Below, piece by piece: positions 1,281-15,635 of a stretch of DNA of 32,507 bases. Both the position numbers and the translations under genes were made by a program. Each line of letters begins with the position of its first letter. The first letter of the stretch is position 1. The stretch lies in the NCBI GenBank assembly GCA_026417275.1, contig JAOADO010000012.1, positions 1 through 32,507 of the forward strand. The letters are read 5' to 3'. Source of the DNA: Verrucomicrobiia bacterium. Lineage in GTDB: Bacteria; Verrucomicrobiota; Verrucomicrobiae; Limisphaerales; JAKPVM01. Below the pieces are notes generated by a model that was not told the origin of the DNA, ran no database searches, and saw only the letters and a program-made list of their open reading frames with translations.

Positions 1281-2750
1281 TTAATTCTTGTGGGACAAAT
1301 CTGTCGTCTCCGGTGGTGAAACAGACCAGTCGCCGCCAAGGGCTTTGTAGAGTGCAATGACGGCGGTGGAAATATTTCTGCGGGATTGGGCGAGGGAATC
1401 TTCGGACGATAGGAGTGAACGCTGGGCGCTGATGACATTGAGAAAGTCTGTTTGCCCTTCTGTGTAAAGTTTGAGGGCAATCTGGACAGCCTCGCGGTTT
1501 GAATCTACGGCTTTCTGAAGTGAGGCGGCATGTTCCTGCTCTTTTGCGAGGGTTACAATTGCGTTTTCGACCTCGGCTATGGCGTTTAAAACAACCTTCT
1601 GGTAATTGATAAAAGATTCGTCCCGGAGGGCTTCTTGAAGTCTTATATTGGATTTTATGGCGCCAGCGCTAAAGATTTGCCAGTCAATTGAAGGACCGAA
1701 TGAGCCTGAACGAACGGGATGGGTGAAAAGTTCACCGAGGGAAGTTTCTTGCAAAGTTAATCCTCCTGTAATTTTGAATTTTGGAAATAGGTCTGCGGTT
1801 GCGACGCCGATTTTAGCGGTAGCAGAATGGAGTTGCGCCTCTGCACGCCGGATGTCTGGTCTGCGTCTGAGAATCTCGGAAGGGACACTGAGTACAATAT
1901 TCTGAGATGGTTCTGGTATGACTGGCGAAACGGGTTGTTTCCATTCCAATTCTTCGATTAACTCCGATGGTTGTTTGCCGAGCAAGAAGGCGATATTGTG
2001 CATTGTTTGACGCATGGATGATTCGAGTGTGGAAACTTGTGATTCTGTGGTTGCCGCTTGAGCTTCTGCGTTTGCGACATCGAGTTTGCTGACAAATCCG
2101 GCTTTGTATCGTTGTCTTGTAATGTTGAGAGTCTGAAGTTGCATCTTCAGGTTGTTTGTAGCAATTGAGATTTGTTGCTGAACTGCTCTTAAATTTATGT
2201 AATTAAGGGCAACTTCTGCGGCAAGGGCAACCTGGACGTCGCGGAAATACTCAACCGCCGCGTTTATGTTAGCCATTGCGGCTTCGACAGAACGTCTGTT
2301 TCCACCGAAGAAGTCCAGTTCCCATAGGGCGTCTATGCCTGCGCGGAATGAATCTGCGCTCTGGGATGGGCGATTTTGATAGGAGCGACTGTAAGATGCG
2401 GATGCCTGGCTGGATGGGAATAAAGAGGCGCGGGTAATTCCATAACTTTCGCGCGCCTGGCGGATTCGTGAGATTGCAATTTTAATATCAAGGTTTTGTT
2501 CAAGAGCAGATTCAACAAGTTTGGTTAAAACAGGGTCATTAAAATTTGTCCACCACCTGGCGAACTCTGATTTTTCAGATATGGTTGGTTTTATATTCTG
2601 ATTCGAAACAAGGCTCGTTGCTACCCATGTTTGAGGAACTTTTGCCTGAGGCGATTTGTACTCGGGGCCCACTTTGCATCCAACCAATAATAAGAGGACG
2701 GTTGATAGAACCATGACAGATATGTGCGAAAAAAATGTATTTTGTTTCAT
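1281..2750 (-). CDS. Outer-membrane efflux lipoprotein (NodT/OprM-type OMF), likely partner of the MacAB-type pump
   Basis: A 489-residue TolC-family exit duct of the lipidated OprM/NodT branch. The start at 2750 is chosen because it gives a clean lipoprotein signal peptide with lipobox LVGC (Cys25) followed by KVGPEYKSP, the usual beginning of this family. An upstream Met codon at 2876 would overlap the permease gene by about 90 bp and add a non-signal extension. Two repeated OEP halves are visible, including WELDFFGGNRRSVEAA in the first and the conserved LRRRPDIRRAEAQL and ATADLFPKF in the second. It is the last gene of the minus-strand efflux operon, directly after the MacB-type permease, so I infer it serves that pump. 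A paralogous OMF is fused to the RND pump in the same operon. Confidence 0.93.
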   Translation of the reverse strand: MKQNTFFSHISVMVLSTVLLLLVGCKVGPEYKSPQAKVPQTWVATSLVSNQNIKPTISEKSEFARWWTNFNDPVLTKLVESALEQNLDIKIAISRIRQARESYGITRASLFPSSQASASYSRSYQNRPSQSADSFRAGIDALWELDFFGGNRRSVEAAMANINAAVEYFRDVQVALAAEVALNYINLRAVQQQISIATNNLKMQLQTLNITRQRYKAGFVSKLDVANAEAQAATTESQVSTLESSMRQTMHNIAFLLGKQPSELIEELEWKQPVSPVIPEPSQNIVLSVPSEILRRRPDIRRAEAQLHSATAKIGVATADLFPKFKITGGLTLQETSLGELFTHPVRSGSFGPSIDWQIFSAGAIKSNIRLQEALRDESFINYQKVVLNAIAEVENAIVTLAKEQEHAASLQKAVDSNREAVQIALKLYTEGQTDFLNVISAQRSLLSSEDSLAQSRRNISTAVIALYKALGGDWSVSPPETTDLSHKN

Positions 2751-2784: not shown

Positions 2785-4158
2785 TTATTCATAACGAAGT
2801 GCTTCAATTGGGTCGAGACGCGATGCTTTCCATGCTGGATAATAGCCAAATACAACGCCAACAGCGACTGAGACAACTACAGATGCGACGATAGCCTCGA
2901 TTGAGGTTGCGGTGGGCCAACCCAAAACCGCCGTCACAATATGTGAACTTAATCTACCAAGAGAAATCCCGATTGCTCCGCCGAGGAGACAGAGGACAAT
3001 TGCTTCGGTGAGGAATTGTTTTAGAATATCGCCTGGTTCGGCACCGACAGCCATGCGGAGACCGATTTCGCGTGTTCTTTCGGTGACTGAGACAAGCATG
3101 ATGTTCATGATGCCAACGCCTCCGACAATAAGAGATATCATTGCAACGGCCAGAAGAAGCCGGGTCATCAGACGAGTGGTACTGCTCATAGTGCGAGTGA
3201 TTTCTGTCATATCGCGGAGGTTGAAATCTTCCGGTTCACCTGGGCGAATTCTGTGACGCTCTCTTAACAGCGCGGTAATTTGCTCCATAGCCGCTTGGAT
3301 ATGTTCGGGAGTTCTGGTGGCAACGAGTATCTGGTCAACATTCGAAAAGCGGACTGGCTGGGGCGCATAAGCGTTTTTGGAAGAAGTTTCAGGGTACAAA
3401 CCGCGCGAACTGCCTGGATAAAGTTGGTCTAGATAACTGCTGGAGGAAGAACTGGAGGAGGATGTTGATGAACTTTGATTTGAGACTGTTGCGGATGTGC
3501 CGCTTACACGATATTTGATAGTTGTCCATGGAGCGAGTATGACATCGTCCTGGTCCATTCCCATCATGTTGGCACCTTTTGGTTTTAAAACGCCGATGAC
3601 TTTGAATGTAACATTTTTAATTCGTATTTCTTTTCCGATTGGCGATTGTCCTTCGAATAGTTCGCGGACGAGGGTTTGACCGAGGAGGCAAACTTTGCTG
3701 GAGTTGCGGATATCGCGTTCGGTAAAGGCTTCGCCTTCCGCAAGGTCTTCCCATTCGCGCACAGTTAAATATTCAGGAGTTGTGCCGTAGATGAAATTTG
3801 GCACCCAGTTGCGATTACCATAGACAACCTGAGAGCGGACACGAACGATTGGCGCCGCGGCGCTGACTGCAGGACATTCGTTTGCAATTGCCTCAGCATC
3901 CTGCGGGGTAAGCGTGAGAGCGCTGCCCATGCCAAAAGTAACGCCGCCACTTGCCGCTGTGCCTGGAAGGACGAGCAGAATATTTGCGCCCATTGAGGCA
4001 ATAGTTTTTTGAATCGCCAGTGAAGAACCATTGCCGATTTCCATCATGGCAATAACTGCCGCGATACCTATGACTATGCCGAGCGTTGTGAGAGCGGCGC
4101 GCATCAGGTTTCTTCTGAGCGCTCGCAAAGATGTTTTTATTGTGCGGATGGATTTCAT
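2785..4158 (-). CDS. macB: MacB-type ABC transporter permease (FtsX/MacB_PCD)
   Basis: A 457-residue permease with the MacB topology: a first membrane segment (about residues 20-42), a long periplasmic domain (about 45-325), then three C-terminal segments forming the FtsX domain (about 330-358, 380-402 and 420-445). Family phrases include RAALTTLGIVIGIAAVIAM, GGVGIMNIMLVSVTERTREIGLRMAVGA and the C-terminal AWKASRLDPIEALRYE. The ATPase is a separate gene, unlike E. coli MacB where both are fused. The start ATG overlaps the ATPase stop by 4 bp (ATGA), indicating coupled translation. The periplasmic domain carries a serine-rich insert (about 229-241). By family, the complex is a mechanotransducer that drives substrate from the periplasm out through an OMF; the substrate cannot be told from sequence. 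The symbol reflects family, not proven function. Confidence 0.93.
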   Translation of the reverse strand: MKSIRTIKTSLRALRRNLMRAALTTLGIVIGIAAVIAMMEIGNGSSLAIQKTIASMGANILLVLPGTAASGGVTFGMGSALTLTPQDAEAIANECPAVSAAAPIVRVRSQVVYGNRNWVPNFIYGTTPEYLTVREWEDLAEGEAFTERDIRNSSKVCLLGQTLVRELFEGQSPIGKEIRIKNVTFKVIGVLKPKGANMMGMDQDDVILAPWTTIKYRVSGTSATVSNQSSSTSSSSSSSSSYLDQLYPGSSRGLYPETSSKNAYAPQPVRFSNVDQILVATRTPEHIQAAMEQITALLRERHRIRPGEPEDFNLRDMTEITRTMSSTTRLMTRLLLAVAMISLIVGGVGIMNIMLVSVTERTREIGLRMAVGAEPGDILKQFLTEAIVLCLLGGAIGISLGRLSSHIVTAVLGWPTATSIEAIVASVVVSVAVGVVFGYYPAWKASRLDPIEALRYE

Positions 4159-4898
4159 TTGATGCCATCCTCCTTTTGAACTTGTTTGATTGAATTTGTT
4201 ACAGAGCCAGAATTACCATTGCCGTTTTCGATAAGCCCGTCTTTTATTCTTATTATTCTTTGAGCGTATTTAGCAACATTGGGGTCGTGAGTTACAAGGA
4301 GAATAGTGAGTCCTTCGGTTTTGTTAAGTTCCTGAAACATTTGAAGGATTTCTACGCTTGTTTTGGAATCAAGATTTCCGGTGGGCTCATCAGCTAACAA
4401 AAGGCGTGGATTATTTATTAATGCTCGCGCAATGGCAACTCTTTGCTGTTGACCGCCCGAGAGCTGGGACGGATGATGGTCCATTCTGTCTGCAAGTCCA
4501 ACTTTTTCGAGTAATTTTATTGCTCGTTCTTTCATCGCTTTTTCGGAAATGTGCTCGTGCGCGTAAGTCAACGGCATTAATACATTTTCGAGGGCGCTTG
4601 TTCGAGACAACAAGTTAAAACTTTGAAAAACAAACCCGATAAGGCTATTTCTTAATCTGGCTCGTTCGTTTACAGAGAAATTCGAGATTTCCTTTCCGTC
4701 GAGTCGGTATTTTCCCGAGGTAGGTCTATCAAGACAACCGAGGATGTTCATCAGGGTGCTTTTCCCGGAGCCGCTTGCGCCCATGAGAGCCACAAGTTCG
4801 CCATAGGCAACTGACATTGTGATGCCTTTGAGAACCTGGAGTTCAACTTCGCCCAGTTTGTAAACTTTGGTCAGATTTTCTACTTCAATTAAGTTCAT
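4155..4898 (-). CDS. MacB/LolD-type ABC transporter ATP-binding protein
   Basis: A 247-residue nucleotide-binding subunit. Walker A GASGSGKST spans residues 40-48, the Q-loop Gln is at 92, the signature LSGGQ at 146-150, Walker B LLLADE at 166-171 and the H-loop His at 204. The motif set and the opening MNLIEVENLTKVY are those of the LolD/MacB ATPase group, which pairs with FtsX-type permeases. It overlaps the permease start by 4 bp and lies 18 bp after the MacA-like adaptor, so the three form one ATP-driven tripartite pump. The last 25 residues are a poorly conserved polar tail. Confidence 0.95.
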   Translation of the reverse strand: MNLIEVENLTKVYKLGEVELQVLKGITMSVAYGELVALMGASGSGKSTLMNILGCLDRPTSGKYRLDGKEISNFSVNERARLRNSLIGFVFQSFNLLSRTSALENVLMPLTYAHEHISEKAMKERAIKLLEKVGLADRMDHHPSQLSGGQQQRVAIARALINNPRLLLADEPTGNLDSKTSVEILQMFQELNKTEGLTILLVTHDPNVAKYAQRIIRIKDGLIENGNGNSGSVTNSIKQVQKEDGIK

Positions 4899-4916
4899 TT
4901 CAACAGGGCATTAATT

Positions 4917-6350
4917 TTACATTCTTCCGCCTCCGAATGAGCCGCCGCGTTGACCCGCACCCGAGCCGCCTGCGCCAGGAGTTGTTCCGCCACCGGTAGC
5001 GCCGCCTGGTCTTTGACGGGTCATTCGCGGAATGAATGGGCTTGAGGTACCACCGGCGGTGTTATCCACCTGAGCAATTTGTTCGCCAACAACAATTTTT
5101 ATTCCCTCCGAAATAGCGTCGCCCTGGATTTCAGTGAATGAACCGTCCGTTAAACCGGCCAGGACTTTTATCGGTTCTACAAAGCCGCCTTTTTCAATCC
5201 ATACGGTAGCCTCGCGGAATTTGGAGGCAACAGCGTCTGGTTGTGGTCTTTGTTTTTTCCGTTCACCGTTTGAGGACATTTGAGTTTCACCGACTTTTTG
5301 TTTGAACGCTGGCGAAATGTATTCCTCTTTTGGAGTCCAGCGAATAGCGGCATTTGGGACCATTAGCACATTTGTGCGTTTGCCAGTTTCAAATTGAACA
5401 TTTGCGGTAAGATAAGGAAGGAGTTTTTGGTCCGGGTTTTCAGTGCTTACTTCAACAGTGTAAGTAACCACGTTCTGAGTCATTGTGGCGTTAAGCCGAA
5501 TTTTTCTGACTTCGCCATGAAACTCAAGCCCCGGGAAGGCATCCACTGTAAAATGGACAGGCATGCCTGGATAAATCATTCCAACGTCCGCCTCGTTTAC
5601 AGCCACCCAGACCTGGATTTTCTTGAGGTCTTTTGCAATCAAGAACAGACTGGGTGCGTTCAGGCTAGCTACAACTGTTTGACCGATGTCTACTTTGCGG
5701 TCAATAATCACACCTTTTACAGGGGATTTGATGACGCAGTAGCTCAAATTTCTTTTTGCGCGGGAAAGGCTTGCTGTAGATTGTTCGACAGCGGCTTTAG
5801 CCTGTTCTATTGAGGCTTTTCCGACTGCGACATTGGCAAGTGCGATTTCGTAAGCGGCTTTGTAACTATCGTAGGCAGATGGGGAGAGTGCCTCAGACGG
5901 ACCTAATTTTTGGGCGCGTTCCCAATCGCGGCGCGCTTGTTCGAGTTTTGCCTGGAATTGTTGAAGGTCGGCTTCGGCTTTCAATTGAGCAGCTTTTGCC
6001 TGGGCAAGTTGCGCGGTCGCCATTTCGACTTCTGCGCTGTAGATTGAATCGTCAATATAGGCAAGTATCATTCCTTCTTCGACTTCTGAGCCGTAGTCAA
6101 CCAGATTGCCGTTTTTATCCTTGCCAAAGGCAATGATTCTTCCGGCTACCTGGGCACCAACGTCCACAAGTTCCTCCGGTTCAATTACACCTGTTGCTGT
6201 TATTGTGGCAATAATATCGCCGCGCGTTATTTCAGCAGTTTTAAATTGGGTTCCTTTACCATTCTTTTTATTAGACTGAAAATACTGTACACCGGCAAAG
6301 CCAGCCGCCGCAAGCAACGCTAACACAATTATCCATTTAACCGCTTTCAT
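4917..6350 (-). CDS. macA: MacA-like periplasmic adaptor (HlyD/RND-MFP family)
   Basis: A 477-residue membrane-fusion protein anchored by an N-terminal hydrophobic segment (residues 5-23) with no lipobox. The order is typical: a first barrel-sandwich half with TAEITRGDIIATITATGVIEPEELVDVGAQVAGRI, an alpha-helical hairpin (about 115-205, rich in Ala, Gln, Glu and Lys), the second lipoyl half with SPVKGVIIDRKVDIGQTV, a beta-barrel with VNEADVGMIYPGMPVHFTVDAFPG, and a membrane-proximal domain. The 'DVGAQVSG.I' and 'VNEADIG.I' phrases are characteristic of MacA. The last 35 residues are an unusual Gly/Arg-rich tail (GGATGGGTTPGAGG and onward). There is no good ribosome-binding site, and a 78 bp gap separates it from the RND gene upstream, the largest gap in the operon, so a secondary promoter there is possible. 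Confidence 0.92.
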   Translation of the reverse strand: MKAVKWIIVLALLAAAGFAGVQYFQSNKKNGKGTQFKTAEITRGDIIATITATGVIEPEELVDVGAQVAGRIIAFGKDKNGNLVDYGSEVEEGMILAYIDDSIYSAEVEMATAQLAQAKAAQLKAEADLQQFQAKLEQARRDWERAQKLGPSEALSPSAYDSYKAAYEIALANVAVGKASIEQAKAAVEQSTASLSRAKRNLSYCVIKSPVKGVIIDRKVDIGQTVVASLNAPSLFLIAKDLKKIQVWVAVNEADVGMIYPGMPVHFTVDAFPGLEFHGEVRKIRLNATMTQNVVTYTVEVSTENPDQKLLPYLTANVQFETGKRTNVLMVPNAAIRWTPKEEYISPAFKQKVGETQMSSNGERKKQRPQPDAVASKFREATVWIEKGGFVEPIKVLAGLTDGSFTEIQGDAISEGIKIVVGEQIAQVDNTAGGTSSPFIPRMTRQRPGGATGGGTTPGAGGSGAGQRGGSFGGGRM

Positions 6351-6428: not shown

Positions 6429-9400
6429 CTATTTTTTATTTGTGGCGAGATTTTGATTATTTGGTGAATTCTCAATATTTTCCCACCCGCCGCCAAGGGC
6501 TTTGTAAACCGCGACAAGCGCGGTTGCCATTTTTGTTTTTGCCTGGGCAAGTTGGCTCTGGGCGGAGAGTTGAACACGCTGAGCGTCAAGGACCGTGAGG
6601 TAATCTGCCACGCCGTGTTCAAAACGCTGTTGGGCAAGGGCAAGCGCTTGTTCGGCGGCAATTGCAGAGTCTTCAAGGTATTTGAGCTGGGCAAGCGTTT
6701 TTCCGTACTGGACAAGGGTGTTTTCTGTTTCTTCAAGCGCGGTGATTACAGTTTTTTCGTAACTTGCAAGTTCAGCTTCGGCGCGGGCGTTTGCGGCTTT
6801 GATTCTTGCGCGAACTCTGCCAAGGTCAAGCGCCGCCCAGCTTATGCGCGGTCCGAATGAATATGTGTCGGCGCCAGCCTCTGTGAATCCACTCAAATTT
6901 TTTGCTTCGAGTCCAAGACTGCCAGTGAATGTGACTCTCGGGAAGAGGTCGGCAGTAGCAATACCGATACGAGCGGTTGCCGCGGCAAGAGACCGCTCCG
7001 CCATTCTAATATCCGGTCTGCGTCTTAATAAATCGGACGGATTTCCGATGTAGATGTTTGTCGGGGTTTTGGGCAATGCGAATGGTTGAGCAAGTTCGTT
7101 TTCAAGAGCCGTTGGCTGACGACCTGTTAGGACGGCAAGTCTGTGTATGGCGTATTTTACGCGTGTTTCTAGCGCAGGAATCATTGCTTCTGTAGCATTC
7201 CATTGAGATTCGGCGCGTTTTACATCAAGTTCTGTGCCGCGTCCGCTATTGAATTTTGATTTAATAAGTTCGTAAGTTTCTTTTTGGCTTTTTGCGTTTT
7301 GTTTTGCAATTTCCAGTTCATTATACGCGCCGCAGAGTTCGAAATAATTTCGCGCCACTTCGGACACCACGCTTACGTAAACAAAGCGTCGATATTCTTC
7401 CATCATGGCGAGTTCCGCGTTTGCGGCTTCGACAGACCTGCGGACTCTTCCGAAGAAATCGAGTTCCCATGTGGCGTCGAAGCCTGCGTCGAAGAGTTCA
7501 TATTCGCGGCTGTCGCGCGACAGACCGCCACTGCCGTCCTTGCTACGGACGCCTTTTGTGTAACCGCCATCGGTGCGAATTGTCGGAAACTGGTCGAATT
7601 TCGTTAAATTACGCATAGCGCGAGTTTCTTTTACTCTGGCAAGGGCGATTTTAAGGTCGTGGTTGTTGGTAATTGCTTCGGAAACAAGACGTATGAGCGT
7701 TTGGTCATCAAACTGTTTCCACCAGTCCACGACTATTGGTTCGGACACAAAGTTTGTCCCTGTGTTAGAGTAACTCTGGTTGATTGAGATGGATGGTTGT
7801 TTATAGTTTGGTCCAACGGCACAACCAGAGAGGAGCATTGTTCCAACGAGCGCCATCAATGCGATGATTGTGAGCGCACCTTTTATTGGAGCGGATGAAT
7901 GATTGTTGGGTTTGGATTTTTCGCCAGTGACTCTTCTTATAACGACGTAGAACACTGGCGCAAGGAAGATGCCGAATAAGGTTACGCCAATCATCCCCCA
8001 GAATGTGGCAGTGCCGATTGCACGGCGGAGTTCAGCGCCTGCGCCGGTGGCAATCATCAGTGGCAGGACGCCAAATGTGAACGCAAACGACGTCATAAGA
8101 ATTGGACGCAAACGGAGTTTGGATGCTTCGAGTGCGGCTTCAAAGCGGTTCATGCCTTTTTCTTGCAATTGACGCGCAAACTCGATGATTAGAATTGAGT
8201 TTTTGCAGGCAAGCCCGATAAGGGTGACCATCCCGATCTGGGTGAACAGGTTGTTTTCCATGCCGCGGAACCAGACGCCGAGGATTGCGAAGAGCAGAGC
8301 CATTGGCGTAATGAGGATGATGGCAAACGGCAGAGACCAGCTTTCATACTGCGCCGCAAGGACAAGGAATACCATGAGCACGCAGATTGGAAATATCAGG
8401 ATGCCAGTTTTACCAGCCATGATTTCAAGAAGGCTCAGTTCCGTCCACTCAATTGCCATGCCAGGTGGCAGTAGTTTTTGCGCCAGTTCTTCCATAATTT
8501 TTATTGCATCGCCGGAACTTACACCCGGGGCTGTTGCACCGTTTAAATCCGCGCTTGGGTAAAGATTATAATGATTCAATGAAGTTGGACCTGTAATTTC
8601 TTTGATTGAGACAACTGTGCCAAGTGGAACCATCTCTCCCGCAAGGTTGCGGGTCTTAAGTTTAAGAACATCACGCGGATATGCTCTGAACGGGGCATCC
8701 GCCTGTGCTCGAACCTGAAATGGTCTTCCAAAGAGTGTGAAGTCGTTTACGTAAACACCGCCCATATAAATACCGAGTGTGTCCCAGATGTTTCCGAGTG
8801 GCACCTGGAGTTTCTTTGCCTTTTCGCGGTCAACTTCGAGCAGAATTTGCGGTTCATTTGCGCGGAAGGTTGTGATAACACCCGAAAGTCGTGGGTTCTG
8901 ATTCGCCGCCCCCATCATGGCGAATGCGGCGCTTTGCAAAGCCGCCGACCCAAGATTTGCCCTATCTTGAATCTGAAGTTTGAATCCACCCACAGAACCA
9001 AGCCCATCCACAGCAGGAAGGTTAAATGCCGTGGCGAAGCCTTCGTTAATCATTGCAAGGCGAGGACGAACCATCGCAAGAATTTTTTCGGCGGTTAGTC
9101 CCTGTTTCTTTCTTTCTTCATAGTCAGCGAGTCTCAAAATAAATGTCGCAGAGTTTGGTTTGCTTCCAAAGGAAAGCATAGAAAAACCATCCAGTTTAAT
9201 AACCGCCTGAACACCAGGGATTTCTTTAAGAATATTATAAATTTTTGTACTTACAACGCGAGTTCGCTCGAGCGAAGCACCATCTGGAAGTTGAACATAG
9301 CCGATTAAAGCACCTTTATCCTGTTGCGGGATGAATCCTGTTGGAACAGTTTTAAAACCAAGATATGTGAATCCGAGCAGACCGCCGTAAACTATCAGAG

Positions 9401-11045
9401 CAATAACACCGTGACGAATAATGTGTTTAAGCGCTTTAGTATAACCATTTCTCGAACTTTCGAAAAACTTGTTGAAGCCTTTGAAGAACCAGCCGAGCGT
9501 TCCATGAATGATTTTTGAGAACAGGTCTGTTTTTTCATGATGGGGTTGAAGGATAAGAGCGCAAAGCGCGGGGCTAAGAGTAAGAGCATTGAACGCCGAT
9601 ATAACTGTAGAGACAGCGATTGTCAGCGCGAACTGCTGATAGAATTTGCCCTGAATGCCGGGTAGAAATGCCGTTGGAACAAACACGGCGCTCAAGACAA
9701 GCGCAATGGCAACGACTGCTCCGCTGATTTCTTCCATAGCAATTTTTGTTGCTTCAACAGGGTCTTTGCCTTCAGAAATGTGGCGTTCAACGTTTTCGAC
9801 AACTACGATTGCGTCGTCAACGACAATACCGATTGCAAGTACAAGACCGAATAGAGTCAGGTTGTTAATCGAGTAACCGAGTGCCGCCATGACCGCAAAT
9901 GTTCCTATCAGTGAAACCGGTACAGCTATGAGCGGAATTATTGAGGCTCGCCAGGTTTGAAGAAATAGAACAACAACGATTGTTACAAGGACCATTGCTT
10001 CGAACAGAGTTTCAAAAACCTCCTTTATTGATGCGCGGACGTATTCAGAGTCGTCGCGCGGGATTCTGTATTCAAGACCTTCAGGAAAGCGTTTGCTTAA
10101 TTCTTTCATCGCCTTTTTAACAGCATCTGCAGTTTCAATCAGGTTCGACCCCGGCAATTGAAACACAGCAATTCCAACCATCGGCGTACCATCGAGATAA
10201 CTTTCCATGCTGTAATCTTTTGCCGCGAGTTCAACGCGGGCAACATCTTTGAGACGTGTGATTTTGCCGTCGCTATCTGTTTTAATGATTATATTTCCAA
10301 ATTCTTCTTCTGAAGCTAAACGTCCTTTTACCAGCGCAACCAATTGCATTGGAACGCCTGGAGGCGCGGGTTGTTGACCAAAGACGCCGCCCGCAACTTC
10401 AACGTTTTGTTCTCTTATTGCTGCGATAATATCTGTGGAGGCAAGGTTGCGGGATGCGGCTTTATCGGGGTCAATCCAGATTCGCATACTGTAATCACGC
10501 GCTCCAAATACAAACACATCGCCGACACCAGGCAAACGGGAAAGAACGTCTTTTACCTGCAGATATGCGTAATTGCTGATGAACACCTCATCCAGCGTTC
10601 GCTTTGGAGAAACGAGCGATACAAGAATAGTCATGCTCGGGGAACGTTTGCGAACGTCAACACCAAGACGACGAACTTCTTCAGGTAGTTTGGGAAGCGC
10701 TGTTTGGACACGGTTTTGAACCTGAACCTGCGCCATGTTAATGTCTGTGCCAACCTTGAACGTTACCTGGATTGACATAGAACCATCCGCGCTACATGCG
10801 GAGGACATATAGAGCATGTTTTCAACGCCGTTGATTTCCTGCATGAGGGGCGTTGCAACTGTGTCGGCAACTGTTTGGGCGCTTGCTCCTGGATATTGCG
10901 CTCTAACGAAAACGGTGGGCGGGGCGACATCCGGAAACGACGCAATCGGCAGATTATAAAGCGAAATTAATCCAACAACCACGATAAAAATCGAAAGCAC
11001 GCTTGCGAATATCGGGCGTCTAATAAAGAAATGCGAGAATTTCAT
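6429..11045 (-). CDS. RND multidrug pump (AcrB/HAE1) fused in frame to an outer-membrane efflux lipoprotein
   Basis: One uninterrupted 1538-codon frame holds two full-length proteins. Residues 1-1036 are an AcrB-type pump: FFIRRPIFA at the N-terminus, the TM4 proton-relay pair Asp410-Asp411 in GIVVDDAIVVVENVER, the TM10 relay Lys948 in ACKNSILIIEFA, and TM12 ending about residue 1036. Residues 1037-1055 form a basic linker, 1056-1075 a hydrophobic segment with lipobox LSGC (Cys1075), and 1075-1538 a complete NodT/OprM-type OMF (CAVGPNYKQP, WELDFFGRVRRSVEAAN, LLRRRPDIRMAERSL, ATADLFPRVTF). AcrB alone is about 1050 residues and OprM-type OMFs about 470, so neither half is shortened. A strong GGAGGG ribosome-binding site lies just upstream of the ATG. 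The gene follows the AcrA-like adaptor by 30 bp. A sequencing or assembly error that removed a stop and start is the main alternative. Confidence 0.92.
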   Translation of the reverse strand: MKFSHFFIRRPIFASVLSIFIVVVGLISLYNLPIASFPDVAPPTVFVRAQYPGASAQTVADTVATPLMQEINGVENMLYMSSACSADGSMSIQVTFKVGTDINMAQVQVQNRVQTALPKLPEEVRRLGVDVRKRSPSMTILVSLVSPKRTLDEVFISNYAYLQVKDVLSRLPGVGDVFVFGARDYSMRIWIDPDKAASRNLASTDIIAAIREQNVEVAGGVFGQQPAPPGVPMQLVALVKGRLASEEEFGNIIIKTDSDGKITRLKDVARVELAAKDYSMESYLDGTPMVGIAVFQLPGSNLIETADAVKKAMKELSKRFPEGLEYRIPRDDSEYVRASIKEVFETLFEAMVLVTIVVVLFLQTWRASIIPLIAVPVSLIGTFAVMAALGYSINNLTLFGLVLAIGIVVDDAIVVVENVERHISEGKDPVEATKIAMEEISGAVVAIALVLSAVFVPTAFLPGIQGKFYQQFALTIAVSTVISAFNALTLSPALCALILQPHHEKTDLFSKIIHGTLGWFFKGFNKFFESSRNGYTKALKHIIRHGVIALIVYGGLLGFTYLGFKTVPTGFIPQQDKGALIGYVQLPDGASLERTRVVSTKIYNILKEIPGVQAVIKLDGFSMLSFGSKPNSATFILRLADYEERKKQGLTAEKILAMVRPRLAMINEGFATAFNLPAVDGLGSVGGFKLQIQDRANLGSAALQSAAFAMMGAANQNPRLSGVITTFRANEPQILLEVDREKAKKLQVPLGNIWDTLGIYMGGVYVNDFTLFGRPFQVRAQADAPFRAYPRDVLKLKTRNLAGEMVPLGTVVSIKEITGPTSLNHYNLYPSADLNGATAPGVSSGDAIKIMEELAQKLLPPGMAIEWTELSLLEIMAGKTGILIFPICVLMVFLVLAAQYESWSLPFAIILITPMALLFAILGVWFRGMENNLFTQIGMVTLIGLACKNSILIIEFARQLQEKGMNRFEAALEASKLRLRPILMTSFAFTFGVLPLMIATGAGAELRRAIGTATFWGMIGVTLFGIFLAPVFYVVIRRVTGEKSKPNNHSSAPIKGALTIIALMALVGTMLLSGCAVGPNYKQPSISINQSYSNTGTNFVSEPIVVDWWKQFDDQTLIRLVSEAITNNHDLKIALARVKETRAMRNLTKFDQFPTIRTDGGYTKGVRSKDGSGGLSRDSREYELFDAGFDATWELDFFGRVRRSVEAANAELAMMEEYRRFVYVSVVSEVARNYFELCGAYNELEIAKQNAKSQKETYELIKSKFNSGRGTELDVKRAESQWNATEAMIPALETRVKYAIHRLAVLTGRQPTALENELAQPFALPKTPTNIYIGNPSDLLRRRPDIRMAERSLAAATARIGIATADLFPRVTFTGSLGLEAKNLSGFTEAGADTYSFGPRISWAALDLGRVRARIKAANARAEAELASYEKTVITALEETENTLVQYGKTLAQLKYLEDSAIAAEQALALAQQRFEHGVADYLTVLDAQRVQLSAQSQLAQAKTKMATALVAVYKALGGGWENIENSPNNQNLATNKK
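7821..7880 (-). other. Internal signal-peptide-like segment with lipobox inside the RND-OMF fusion
   Basis: This stretch encodes residues 1056-1075 of the fusion: a hydrophobic core starting GALTIIALMALVG and ending in LLSGC, a good lipoprotein lipobox. The preceding 19-residue linker carries several Lys/Arg and no acidic cluster. TM12 of an AcrB protein ends in the cytoplasm, so the linker would be cytoplasmic and this segment would re-enter the membrane in the orientation of a signal peptide. The residue after Cys is Ala, not the Asp that retains lipoproteins in the inner membrane of enterobacteria. No ATG or GTG lies between TM12 and the hydrophobic core; a TTG-ATG pair inside the core would give too short a signal peptide. 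Confidence 0.7.
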
Positions 11046-11075: not shown

Positions 11076-12407
11076 TTATTTTTTGGGATTTGCCGAGCCC
11101 TGTGGCGCTCCCTGCGCTGCTTGTTGTTGGGAATCGGCAGCGTGTTGTTTTGTTTGCCCTTGCGGTTGTTGTCCCATACCAGGCATTTGCGCTGGTTGGT
11201 TCGGGTCAACCACTTGAACTTTAATACCTGGACGCAACATGAGCAAACCACTCACAACTATATCGTCTTCGGGCGATAGTCCTCCAACCACAACCCGTTG
11301 CATTCCTTGCTGGATACCAAGTGTCAGCACACGCGGGGCGATAGTCTGGTCTTTGTTCACCACATAGACGTATTTACGGGTTTGTTCTGAAAGAATGGCG
11401 CCTTCGGGGATTAACAACGTTGAATCGAATTTCTCAATAGGCAGACGAATCCTCGCGAATGCGCCAGAAATAAGTGAGCGGTCTTTGTTTTCAAACACGC
11501 CACGGAGTTTGATTGTGCCGCTGGTTGAATCAATTTTATTGTCTGTGAAATCAATTGTTCCTTTATGTGGAAAACCTTCTTCGCCATCCAGGGCGGCTTC
11601 GCAAGGCAGAACGAGTTTCCCATCTTTTGATATGGCAAGTTTTCGATATTTTAAATAAGAACGTTCGGGGACATCAAAGTAACAGTATATCGGGTCCAAT
11701 GAAACAAGTGTGGCAAGAACAGTTCCCGGTGCGGCTCCGCCACCCTGGACAAGGTTACCCACAGTAACAAGTCGACGTCCAATTCTGCCGTTTATCGGCG
11801 CGGTGATGCGCGTGTATTCGAGATTCAACTCGGCAAGACGAACAGCGGATTGAGCAGAGTGAACTGCAGATTCTGCGGCGCTCACCGCCGCGTTTGCCGC
11901 TTCAACGGCGGCGGTAGCTTCGCGAAAGGTTTTGGAGCGCAGGTCATATTCTTCTTCAGAAATCGCCTTCGCCGCACGCAGACTCTCGGCTCGTTTTAAA
12001 TCGTTATTTGCAAGTTCAAGCCGTGTCCCAGCCTGTGTTTTGTTGGCGCGCGCCTGTTCGAGCGAGGCTTTGGCGCGGGCAAGTTCGGCGTTTGCGCGGG
12101 CAAGTTCGGCTTCAAAAGGTTTGGGGTCAATTATGAACAGAAGGTCGCCGGCTTTCACTTCTGCACCATCCTGGAAATGAATGGATTCAATGTAACCGGA
12201 AACGCGAGGTCTTATTTCGACGAATTCGACTGAATCAAATCTCCCAGGATATTCGTCCCAGTTTGTCACTGTTCCCACGATGGGTTTCGCCACCGAAACC
12301 ATTGGAGCCATTTGCGCTGAAGAATTTTGTTTAGGCGAACACGCCGTAAGTCCAAGAATCGCAATCGTTCCTGCTATGGATATTTTAACCCAGTTAATGT
12401 TTTTCAT
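11076..12407 (-). CDS. AcrA/MexA-type RND adaptor lipoprotein
   Basis: A 443-residue periplasmic adaptor for the RND pump encoded next. The N-terminus is a lipoprotein signal with lipobox LTAC (Cys23). Following domains are a lipoyl half with DEYPGRFDSVEFVEIRPRVSGYIESIHFQDGAEVKAGDLLFIIDPKPFEAEL, a long alpha hairpin (about 95-190), the second lipoyl half (ITAPINGRIGRRLVTVGNLV), and a beta-barrel with the typical LVSLDPIYCYFDVPE phrase. The C-terminal 40 residues are a Gln/Pro/Ala-rich tail with no known role. Its ATG overlaps the TetR stop by 4 bp. Distinct adaptors for the RND and MacAB pumps argue that two complete pumps are encoded. Confidence 0.94.
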   Translation of the reverse strand: MKNINWVKISIAGTIAILGLTACSPKQNSSAQMAPMVSVAKPIVGTVTNWDEYPGRFDSVEFVEIRPRVSGYIESIHFQDGAEVKAGDLLFIIDPKPFEAELARANAELARAKASLEQARANKTQAGTRLELANNDLKRAESLRAAKAISEEEYDLRSKTFREATAAVEAANAAVSAAESAVHSAQSAVRLAELNLEYTRITAPINGRIGRRLVTVGNLVQGGGAAPGTVLATLVSLDPIYCYFDVPERSYLKYRKLAISKDGKLVLPCEAALDGEEGFPHKGTIDFTDNKIDSTSGTIKLRGVFENKDRSLISGAFARIRLPIEKFDSTLLIPEGAILSEQTRKYVYVVNKDQTIAPRVLTLGIQQGMQRVVVGGLSPEDDIVVSGLLMLRPGIKVQVVDPNQPAQMPGMGQQPQGQTKQHAADSQQQAAQGAPQGSANPKK

Positions 12408-13117
12408 AATTTTCCCTTAAATTGATTGTTGTTGTTTAAATCCTTTTTGTTTTCTGAATTTTTATTCTGTGAATCTTCTCCAACGCCGGGAGCCTTTAAA
12501 CCAGCAGAGCAAAATCTGACCAATTGTTTAAGCACCTGAGCAGTGTCTGATGGATTGCACAAGCCGCCGCTCATATATTCGACTTTCTGGGGATTGCAGA
12601 GGATGAAAAACAGGGCGCCCCAGATAAATTCAAACCGCCATTGCAGGTCTTTTTCATCAAGATATGGGAGTTTGGATTTTATTAAATTGATGAATCCATC
12701 GCGCAAATCTTTGTGCCGCCTTTTGTTTGCCTCCTGGGTCATCCTGTGGGGTTCTGTAACCATTCTGCCGATTAGACGACGAATAATCTGGCTTCGAGAC
12801 GGTTCGGATTCAGCTATTCTGAGCGGGGTTCGGAGCATGCAGACGATAAGATCCTCGAGGGTATATTTATCCGGTTCTTCCTGGAGTTTTTTAAGCGCTT
12901 CCTTTTGTTCTTTAAAAAACGGGTCGAACCGCCTGTCCAGCACCGCCCATAGAAGTCCCTCTTTGGATTCGAAATAATAATAGACAGTGGCAAGGTTCAC
13001 CTTTGCAGCTCTGACGATTTCGCGCATAGAGGCGCCTTCAAAACCGCTCTCGGCGAAGATTTTTTCCGCCACATCGAGTATACGCTCTTTCGGATCTATT
13101 TTTTCATCTTTTCCCAT
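12404..13117 (-). CDS. TetR/AcrR-family transcriptional regulator
   Basis: A 237-residue one-component repressor and first gene of the efflux operon. The N-terminal helix-turn-helix is clear: ILDVAEKIFAESGFEGASM followed by REIVRAAKVNLATVYYYFESKEGLL (about residues 13-60). The rest is an all-helical ligand-binding/dimerisation domain (about 70-215) ending in a polar Asn/Lys-rich tail. The position in front of the pumps, the 4 bp overlap with the adaptor gene, and the palindrome over its own promoter suggest autoregulation of the whole cluster and derepression by a pump substrate. The ligand is unknown. Confidence 0.95.
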   Translation of the reverse strand: MGKDEKIDPKERILDVAEKIFAESGFEGASMREIVRAAKVNLATVYYYFESKEGLLWAVLDRRFDPFFKEQKEALKKLQEEPDKYTLEDLIVCMLRTPLRIAESEPSRSQIIRRLIGRMVTEPHRMTQEANKRRHKDLRDGFINLIKSKLPYLDEKDLQWRFEFIWGALFFILCNPQKVEYMSGGLCNPSDTAQVLKQLVRFCSAGLKAPGVGEDSQNKNSENKKDLNNNNQFKGKL

Positions 13118-13394: not shown

Positions 13395-13865
13395 TTATGT
13401 TTCTTTTTTATCTGGATGATTTTCTGAGAGGCGGCGGAGATTTTCTTGTTTTGTTTTTAATTTCTGAAGTTTGTCTTCGTTGGTTTCTTCTGGTTTAAAA
13501 TGGGACTCGATGCATTCGACTATTTGTTCGATAGGCGCGGGTTTGGCGATAAAATACAGTCCGCCGCGGTTAATTCCTTTTTCTCCAGCCTCTCGGCGGC
13601 TGACCGTGGCTGTTAGAAAGATTATCGGAATATCCTTGAAATTTGGGTCAGCCTTTATTCTTGCGGCAACTGCTCCGCCATCGGCATCTGGCATCAACAC
13701 GTCAAGTAATATCACATGCGGTTTAAATTCTTTTAATACGGCAGGAACGCGTCTCCCTTTATTTTCCTCGCGTACCTCGTAAAGACCGGTCTTTTCGAGG
13801 CTTAACCGCAGTGTACGGGTGAACGCGACTTCGTCATCCACTATTAGCACTCGTTTTTTCTCCAT
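13395..13865 (-). CDS. Receiver-only response regulator (CheY-like)
   Basis: A 156-residue protein holding one REC domain (about 4-125): acidic pair Asp10-Asp11, phosphoacceptor Asp55 in VILLDVLMPDADGG, switch Thr85 in IIFLTA and Lys108 in FIAKPA. After the REC domain there is only a charged helical tail (about 126-156), with no DNA-binding or enzymatic output domain. It lies 27 bp downstream of the histidine kinase and is surely its partner. A receiver without output may act by protein-protein contact, as in CheY, or relay phosphate to another protein; which one cannot be told here. Confidence 0.93.
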   Translation of the reverse strand: MEKKRVLIVDDEVAFTRTLRLSLEKTGLYEVREENKGRRVPAVLKEFKPHVILLDVLMPDADGGAVAARIKADPNFKDIPIIFLTATVSRREAGEKGINRGGLYFIAKPAPIEQIVECIESHFKPEETNEDKLQKLKTKQENLRRLSENHPDKKET

Positions 13866-13892
13866 AATGACCGCCAGTTTTTTTGCTCATAA

Positions 13893-15635
13893 TTATTTTA
13901 TATTTGCTCTGAATGTTAGTTTTGCCAGAACACCGCCCTCAGGGCGGTTTGTAATTTGTATTTCTCCGCCGTGCATTTCCATTATTTTCTTGGCGACAGC
14001 AAGCCCGAGTCCTGTGCCTTTTGATGATTTTTTAGATGTGCAAAAAGGCTCGAACAATCTCGCCATAACTTCTTTTGGTATGCCAGAGCCGGTGTCTTCA
14101 ATTTCGGCAACAACCACGGTTTCGCCAACTTCAAATCGTCTCAGTCCCCACATTTGTGTTTCGCCTGGCGCTTCTTCCGGAGGGATTACTCTCGAATATG
14201 TCCTTACCGTCAATACTCCGCCGTGTGGCATCGCATGCATGGAGTTCATTATCAAATTCACTAACACTTGTTCTATCCTTGTACGGTCTGCCAGGATTTG
14301 CGGCAATGTTGATGAAAAATTTTTGACAACAGTGATTTTATTTCTGTTTAAGTCGTGTTTTAACAGGTTTAGAGAGGTTTCCATGATTGCGTTTAGATTT
14401 TCCGAGTTTACTCCGAGTTCTTGAGATGCGGCAAAGTCGAGCATGCCGCGGACCACACCGTCTGCACGCACTAAAGCTTCGCGCATGTCTTGAATGACGG
14501 ATGCCACTGTTTCGTTTTCTATCGCTTCTGTTTGTCGCAAATAATCTATGCCAGATTGAATGATGGCGAGCGGGTTTTTCACTTCATGCGCCACACCAGC
14601 GGCAAGTCTTCCGACGCTTTCCATTCGTTCCGCTTGAATCAGAAGATTCTGGGCGGCTTTTAGTTCTTCATGAGATTTTTCTAATTCATTTAACGCTTTG
14701 AGCAATTCCTGTTTGCGTTTTTCAAGTTCAATATTCGCCTCAATCAGTTTATCTTTAGCGAGTTTTTGTTCTGTAATGTCCCAGAAAATCCCCTGGATTC
14801 CGATTATCCTGCCGTCGGCATCCAGAATTGGCGTTTTACACACTTGAACATACATTTTGTTTCCACCTGGCGGCTGATGTTCTTCAATGGTTTCAAATGT
14901 TTTTCCTGTTTTAATTACATGTTGGTCGTCATTAGAATATTTTTTTGCAAGTTCTGGCGGATAAAAATCGAAGTCGCTCTTACCAACAAGGTTCTCAAGG
15001 CGTATGCCAAGCGATTGACAGAATCTTTTATTAGCAAACGTGAATCGTCCTTCAAGGTCTTTGCGAAAAATATTCTGAGGTAAAGTTTCGACAAGTGAAT
15101 GGTAGAATGCTTCGGATGCGCGTAATTTTTCCTCCGCTGTTCTTTGAACGGTAACATCGCGTGCCACAACAGCAATTCCAATTAAAGTGTTATTATTATC
15201 TTGACCAACAGGAATTACAGTTAACATCAGTTTAACAGACTTATTATCTTTTCTAACATACTCATAATTAATGCTCTGTATTCCTTCGCAATTTTTAAAC
15301 AGTTCCCGCAATTTGCCATTTTCAGTCTTGTTCTCCCTGTCCAGTATAAATTCGAGTTTTTTGCCAATTGCTTCAGATTGATTTATCCCGAAAATTCTTT
15401 CTGCCGCCTTATTCCATAAAAATATTGTTCCTGTTGTGTCTGCGCATACAATCGCGTCATCCGAGCCTTTGAATATCGCGCGGAAAAAATCGCATTCTTC
15501 AATTTCTGCAGGAGAGGCTAAAGCTATCGGGTATTTGCTTGCACTATCTTTTGGTAAGGAAGATGTTTTACCATTATTTTGAGGACATGTTGTCCTTTTT
15601 TTTCGTTTGTTTGAGGCTTTGTTCTCTTCTGGCAT
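13893..15635 (-). CDS. Soluble double-PAS sensor histidine kinase
   Basis: A 580-residue kinase with no membrane segment or signal peptide. The order is: a basic, low-complexity N-terminus (1-40), PAS1 (about 48-165; GSDDAIVCADTTGTIFLWNKAAERIFG), PAS2 with PAC (about 172-292; ENIFRKDLEGRFTFANKRF-like opening and DITEQK end), a coiled coil (about 293-338), a HisKA helix with phospho-acceptor His350 in GVAHEVKNPLAII, and a HATPase domain with N-box Asn464, G1 DTGSGIP (514-520) and G2 GTGLGL (540-545). The second PAS matches the PAS_4 style often bound to small ligands. The absence of membrane anchors points to a cytoplasmic signal. It forms a two-gene operon with the receiver protein downstream. 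Confidence 0.95.
   Translation of the reverse strand: MPEENKASNKRKKRTTCPQNNGKTSSLPKDSASKYPIALASPAEIEECDFFRAIFKGSDDAIVCADTTGTIFLWNKAAERIFGINQSEAIGKKLEFILDRENKTENGKLRELFKNCEGIQSINYEYVRKDNKSVKLMLTVIPVGQDNNNTLIGIAVVARDVTVQRTAEEKLRASEAFYHSLVETLPQNIFRKDLEGRFTFANKRFCQSLGIRLENLVGKSDFDFYPPELAKKYSNDDQHVIKTGKTFETIEEHQPPGGNKMYVQVCKTPILDADGRIIGIQGIFWDITEQKLAKDKLIEANIELEKRKQELLKALNELEKSHEELKAAQNLLIQAERMESVGRLAAGVAHEVKNPLAIIQSGIDYLRQTEAIENETVASVIQDMREALVRADGVVRGMLDFAASQELGVNSENLNAIMETSLNLLKHDLNRNKITVVKNFSSTLPQILADRTRIEQVLVNLIMNSMHAMPHGGVLTVRTYSRVIPPEEAPGETQMWGLRRFEVGETVVVAEIEDTGSGIPKEVMARLFEPFCTSKKSSKGTGLGLAVAKKIMEMHGGEIQITNRPEGGVLAKLTFRANIK

Follow-up and report, generated by a model that had tools for sequence, protein, structure and literature searches.

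The closest described systems to the locus reported here are the tripartite pumps MexEF-OprN, BpeEF-OprC and OqxAB. The resemblance extends to the pump itself, whose nearest solved structures by sequence are the HAE-1 permeases 8yr0, 7wlv, 8zxs and 7cz9 (three of these are titled AdeG, BpeF and OqxB), to an OprN-like duct and to a MexE-like adaptor encoded directly upstream. The gene order adaptor-pump-duct is also the same. In systems of the MexEF-OprN type, the pump and the duct are two genes, whereas in the locus described here a single frame encodes both, and the signal peptide lies inside it. For tripartite pumps, the matching of pump, adaptor and duct numbers is an open matter, as is the use of a shared duct (TolC) as against a dedicated one.

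Two other kinds of protein are comparable. In Bacteroidota, an RND pump of the CusA type, a linker, a hydrophobic segment, a cleavage-type site and a TolC-type duct follow one another in a single frame. These proteins differ from the present fusion in that they belong to the heavy-metal RND family, carry a signal peptidase I- (SPase I-) type and not a lipoprotein site, and apparently represent a separate fusion. The cytochrome b/c1 polyprotein FbcH of Bradyrhizobium unites a polytopic membrane protein with its periplasmic partner in one chain, which contains an internal signal peptide and is cut to release the two. It differs from the present fusion in the use of SPase I, in a partner that belongs to the inner membrane and in its role in a respiratory complex.

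Among the open-access papers listed in literature searches (titles and abstract openings), none describes an RND-duct fusion; as the searches covered open papers only, this is weak evidence. The open-access papers listed likewise include no bacterial precedent for a cut at an internal signal, or for a cut by signal peptidase II (SPase II) after a twelve-helix protein. The passages on fusions in two reviews contain no pump-duct fusion (PMC8277102; PMC4446572), and the second review mentions fused dimeric adaptors. Databases list the fusions under pump or duct names, some of them in one source as 'HAE1 family protein/NodT family efflux transporter ...'. Naming such proteins by the pump family alone hides a whole outer-membrane duct.

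The fused frame and its gene neighbourhood

The window, which is the whole stretch of DNA analysed (32,507 nucleotides from a Verrucomicrobiia bacterium), contains the fusion and the neighbouring genes listed in Table 1.

Table 1. Position of the fused frame, its parts and the surrounding genes in the window
Feature	Coordinates	Strand	Basis
RND pump/outer-membrane duct fusion ORF, 1538 aa	6429-11045	-	ORF, Pfam and NCBIfam matches
Residues 1-1038, complete HAE-1 RND permease (MexF/OqxB/AdeG type)	7932-11045	-	Profile matches, relay residues
Residues 1039-1056, basic linker with predicted disorder, presumed cytoplasmic	7878-7931	-	Charge count, AF2, AcrB topology
Residues 1057-1071, hydrophobic segment (putative signal-peptide H-region), low-confidence modelled helix	7833-7877	-	AF2
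Lipobox LSGC (L1072-S-G-C1075); Cys1075 codon at 7821-7823	7821-7832	-	Motif, alignment
Residues 1075-1538, putative mature NodT/OprN-type outer-membrane duct	6432-7823	-	TIGR01845, alignment, AF2
Gene for a MexE-like periplasmic adaptor, upstream of the fusion with a gap of 30 bases	11076-12407	-	Pfam/NCBIfam
TetR-family regulator, 4-base overlap with the adaptor gene	12404-13117	-	Pfam/NCBIfam
Individual genes immediately downstream of the RND fusion for a MacA-like adaptor, a MacB-like ATPase and an FtsX/MacB permease	2785-6350	-	
Last gene of the MacAB-like cluster, a separate NodT duct that has an N-terminal lipobox of its own (MKQNTFF...LLLVGC)	1281-2750	-	
Genes for a response regulator and a PAS-domain histidine kinase, immediately upstream of that for TetR	13395-15635	-	

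The fused frame is open over 1538 codons and starts with an ATG, just upstream of which lies GGAGGG. In the pump half, the Pfam family ACR_tran spans residues 3-1037 (profile positions 1-1021 of 1021). The NCBIfam model RND_permease_1 (NF000282) matches residues 4-1038 with 1399.5 bits against a cut-off of 1250, TIGR00915 reaches 1206.9 bits (cut-off 940.35), and the HAE-1 matches together span residues 3-1051. The proton-relay places are occupied by D410, D411, K948 and R980, which we take to correspond to residues 407, 408, 940 and 971 of AcrB. When the protein is aligned with its best 120 homologues (see below), K948 and R980 are kept in all 121 rows and D410 and D411 in 116; the other five rows have gaps at the latter two places and are proteins of 929-1105 aa.

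In the duct half, the Pfam family OEP is matched twice, and the NCBIfam model TIGR01845 (outer_NodT) covers residues 1067-1520 with 370.3 bits (cut-off 210.05). The closest solved structures by sequence are those of OprN (5azo and 5iuy), and the modelled duct half compares with OprN at a target TM-score of 0.88-0.90. Both halves are full length and lie above curated cut-offs, which bears out the claim of the sequence-only reading that a complete AcrB-type pump and a complete OprM/NodT-type lipoprotein occupy one 1538-codon frame; the basic linker, the hydrophobic segment and the lipobox LSGC (Cys1075) that it had placed between them are all present in the translated frame. Taken singly, the pump, the duct and the adaptor are unremarkable representatives of known families. 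The unusual feature is that a single frame joins pump and duct and that the signal peptide inside it is conserved.

The RND fusion and the MacAB-like cluster amount to two tripartite pumps with different energy sources in one gene run. For the separate NodT duct of this cluster, the TTG start at 2876 given in the ORF list is probably wrong, and the ATG at 2750 fits better.

Fused and split relatives

A homologue search with residues 900-1538 scored 7999 candidates, limited in length to 0.55-1.75 times 1538 aa, of which 5871 reached E <= 0.001. Because the query covers both halves and the candidates are limited in length, this search favours fusions and provides no estimate of how frequent split genes are. 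Both domains occur in each of the best 120 of the 5871 homologues; 112 of these are at least 1400 aa long, and the other eight have 929-1285 aa. An NCBI name is available for 11 of the 120, of which ten are labelled Verrucomicrobiota (spellings vary) and one Candidatus Acidoferrum. Near homologues share 83%, and 76% (Verrucomicrobiia), identity with the fusion of the window, in keeping with a verrucomicrobial origin.

The query and these 120 homologues (23 clusters below 75% identity) have an invariant lipobox Cys (121/121). The residue at -1 is Gly in 119 proteins and Ala in two, Leu occupies -3 in 94, and at +2 the proteins have A, T, M, S or V but in no case Asp. The N-region before the hydrophobic stretch has a net charge of +1 to +5 in every protein, the linker is variable, and the distance from the pump end to the Cys ranges from 29 to 43 residues.

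Fusions of another type are found on a contig titled Woeseiaceae (L003/L059), which carries a partial fused frame of 740 aa. Three genomes of the family of this contig have fused frames of 1502, 1511 and 1625 aa, and partial ones lie at contig ends. At the strict limit, 8 of 101 genomes have any match, and in two of the eight the pump or the duct occupies a frame of its own. The pump half of the Woeseiaceae type is far below the cut-offs of NF000282 and NF033617 (one protein tested) and is therefore of a different RND subfamily; the junction of L062 reads LSGC. A search with one Woeseiaceae-type protein returned 198 proteins at E <= 0.001, and 59 of the best 120 were new, 49 of these being at least 1400 aa long. 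The 59 include window-type relatives, two proteins labelled Acidobacteriota and one labelled Entotheonellia. The lipobox Cys is present in all 59, where it is preceded by Gly and followed by A, M, T, V, K, L or R. In total, the Cys is kept in 180 of 180 fused proteins and is never followed by Asp. The sequence-only reading had pointed to other proteins with ACR_tran, OEP and an internal lipobox as the place to look, and by these comparisons the architecture is widespread and not a curiosity of one genome.

Split relatives are also found. In G303, a genome of the same family as the Woeseiaceae-type fusions, the pump stop and the duct start overlap as ATGA (L072, 3529-3532, minus strand), and a gene pair overlapping in this manner is, from its sequence, a likely forerunner of the fusion. 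In three proteobacterial plasmid relatives, pump and duct are adjacent separate genes. This last arrangement would fit an assembly or frameshift artefact that joined two neighbouring genes in the window, an explanation whose probability is negligible and which is already refuted by the fused relatives, given the length of most of the best 120 homologues, the many records in which fusions occur and the conserved fusions elsewhere. A stop or frameshift at 7881-7937, or relatives that are always split, had been named as signs of such an artefact. Neither a stop nor a frameshift lies there in this record, the relatives share the architecture, and the gene is not a lone case.

In a Chlamydiota-type set, 152 of 232 genomes have a duct match and no fusion is among the matches listed, where the frames have 414-643 aa, with one further frame of 901 aa that has a stop inside the match. 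One scan of genome contigs gave 24 loci, which do not include the fusion of the window.

In Bacteroidota, the CusA/CzcA model TIGR00914 was searched over 118 genomes and the frames were counted by eye. Frames of 1437-1523 aa number at least 54, in at least 45 genomes, and the others among the matches listed have 949-1159 aa. ACR_tran and OEP are over their cut-offs in nine of nine tested genes (eight pieces and L077, the whole gene of L078), the test being passed weakly in L095 (27.9 bits vs 22). An OEP scan of 61 Bacteroidota genomes gave no frame above 893 aa in the best matches listed, an absence that means little because the CusA profile did find long frames. Junctions were read in 20 of the 54 long frames, and each shows K/R residues and a hydrophobic stretch followed by x-x-A/Q (19 junctions) or A-Y-S/Q (one), the slash marking the presumed cut in a pattern that we defined ourselves. 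SPase I prefers a small residue at -3. This residue is small (A, S, T, G or V) in 18 of the 20 junctions and is Phe in L083 and Leu in L095, and the sites appear to be of the SPase I type. The type of site seems to follow the duct, since in the 20 junctions read the fusions with a TolC-type duct carry an SPase I-type site and not a lipobox.

The junction and its proposed maturation

The signal peptide of the duct is internal (residues ~1039-1074) and does not stand at the N-terminus of a gene product of its own. Ahead of the hydrophobic stretch, the linker has four K/R against one D/E. In the AF2 model of residues 937-1538 (37 sequences; mean pLDDT 80.7, pTM 0.66), helices of the last pump segment are followed by a linker in disorder, by a low-confidence helix at 1057-1072 (block pLDDT ~54) and by an OprN-like duct that is modelled with confidence. 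The topology of AcrB places the pump C-terminus in the cytoplasm, and for this reason the helix is given the orientation of a signal peptide. The junction thus appears to hold an internal N-in/C-out signal peptide with a cleavage motif, and the predicted SPase II cut site lies between G1074 and C1075. The N-terminus of OprM-type ducts is lipidated and located at the outer membrane. In sequence alignments, Cys1075 falls on the first residue of the mature OprN (5azo) and OprM (1wp1) chains as crystallised, and the structure 4y1k is titled as palmitoylated OprM.

On sequence grounds, the fusion is very probably a polyprotein in which SPase II cuts at the internal signal peptide to give a pump and a lipidated duct in a 1:1 ratio. 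We infer its topology, lipidation, cleavage, outer-membrane delivery, stoichiometry and efflux function along the following lines. The C-terminus of the MexF-type pump would continue through the basic linker into the internal lipoprotein signal peptide and then into the OprN-type duct. A thirteenth helix, oriented N-in/C-out, would be formed by the signal peptide, which would carry the duct into the periplasm through Sec. Lgt would lipidate Cys1075 and LspA (SPase II) would cut before it. The freed lipoprotein, which has no Asp at +2, would move to the outer membrane and assemble into trimers, which would pair with trimers of the pump and with the MexE-like adaptor from its own gene. As parts of one chain, pump and duct would be produced in the same number and, in principle, next to each other; the equal supply would hold only if both halves are equally stable.

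The earlier proposal that SPase II may cut the chain gains support from the comparison, namely from the Cys kept in 121/121 and 59/59 proteins, the net positive linker in 121/121, the lack of Asp after the Cys in all 180, the position of Cys1075 at mature residue 1 and the SPase I-type sites of the CusA-TolC fusions. The conservation of the lipobox could in part reflect ancestry: free-standing NodT ducts have a lipobox as well (45 of the 46 in the tree set by a loose pattern, the 46th by eye), and the NodT model covers the signal peptide.

The same reading had also considered that the chain stays uncut, so that one polypeptide links the inner and outer membranes. This would agree with the single uninterrupted frame, yet it is highly improbable. 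The modelled helix ends at 1072 and Cys1075 aligns with residue 1 of mature OprN and OprM, and for this reason an uncut chain would have no usable spacer and the N-terminus of its duct would be held at the inner membrane; nor would there be a reason to keep the lipobox Cys in 180/180 proteins or the A-x-A/Q-like sites in the CusA-TolC fusions. It is quite unlikely that the chain is cut by another protease (SPase I or a quality-control enzyme) or is cut only partly, with both forms coexisting. SPase I is the likely cutter in the CusA-TolC fusions, but in the window-type proteins the invariant Cys, the Gly or Ala at -1 and the prevailing Leu at -3 are as would be expected of an SPase II site.

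A further alternative to the SPase II-cut polyprotein is that the duct arises mainly by internal initiation of translation and that the read-through fusion is incidental. The split relative of G303, with its duct start in the ATGA overlap, is in keeping with this, as are Met residues placed like an ancestral duct start in 4 of the 121 window-type proteins and in 9 of the 20 Bacteroidota junctions (L081, L082, L084, L085, L087, L090, L091, L092 and L096), where an ATG stands 17-24 residues before the site. Some Bacteroidota relatives may also start the duct separately, and one frame would then possibly be doubly used. For the window, internal initiation is very unlikely. ATG, GTG and TTG codons are absent from residues 1032-1062 of its gene, which leaves no way to start the duct on its own with a normal basic N-region; start codons at residues 1063, 1064 and 1070 would leave the duct without a basic N-region, and the GTG at residue 1031 stands 44 residues ahead of the Cys, where the last helix of the pump ends. 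An internal duct start was rejected here for want of a suitable codon. A suitable Met is likewise missing in 117 of the 121 proteins, the count referring to protein sequences except in the gene of the window, where GTG and TTG were included.

If matured by SPase II or SPase I as proposed, fusions with conserved internal signal peptides would represent a natural case of enforced 1:1 supply, and the peptidase would become a maturation factor for the exit of the pump.

Origins of the fusions

The origin of the fusions was addressed with a tree of 91 duct halves, 45 fused and 46 free-standing, from which near-copies had been thinned and in which group labels were set by the search list and not by taxonomy. 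The window-type ducts group together (n = 23; support 95/75), and the Woeseiaceae-type ducts form another group (n = 15; support 100/99). Other fused ducts fall elsewhere with weak support, namely six (two of them labelled Acidobacteriota) and one single duct. One group of all 45 fused ducts is rejected (p-AU 0.0003), and a single origin of the NodT fusions is thereby rejected on the duct tree, a result weakened by long branches and uneven composition. The fusions probably arose more than once, and at least three separate origins are favoured when the CusA-TolC fusions, with a pump of another family, are included. Halves may later have been exchanged between fusions.

The balance is even for the wider proposal that RND pump-duct polyproteins are a convergently evolved class that arose independently in several lineages. 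In such a class, the two chains would be parted by the peptidase suited to the duct in question (SPase II with NodT, SPase I with TolC) once the duct is across the inner membrane, the supply would be 1:1, the halves would meet in cis, and the duct would be dedicated and not shared.

Length varies among the window-type fusions. The members of one subgroup (P0151-P0174) have ~1590-1600 aa and are about 55 aa longer, and the pump half of P0154 has an insert of ~75 residues, since its NF000282 match covers residues 4-1106 for 1028 model positions.
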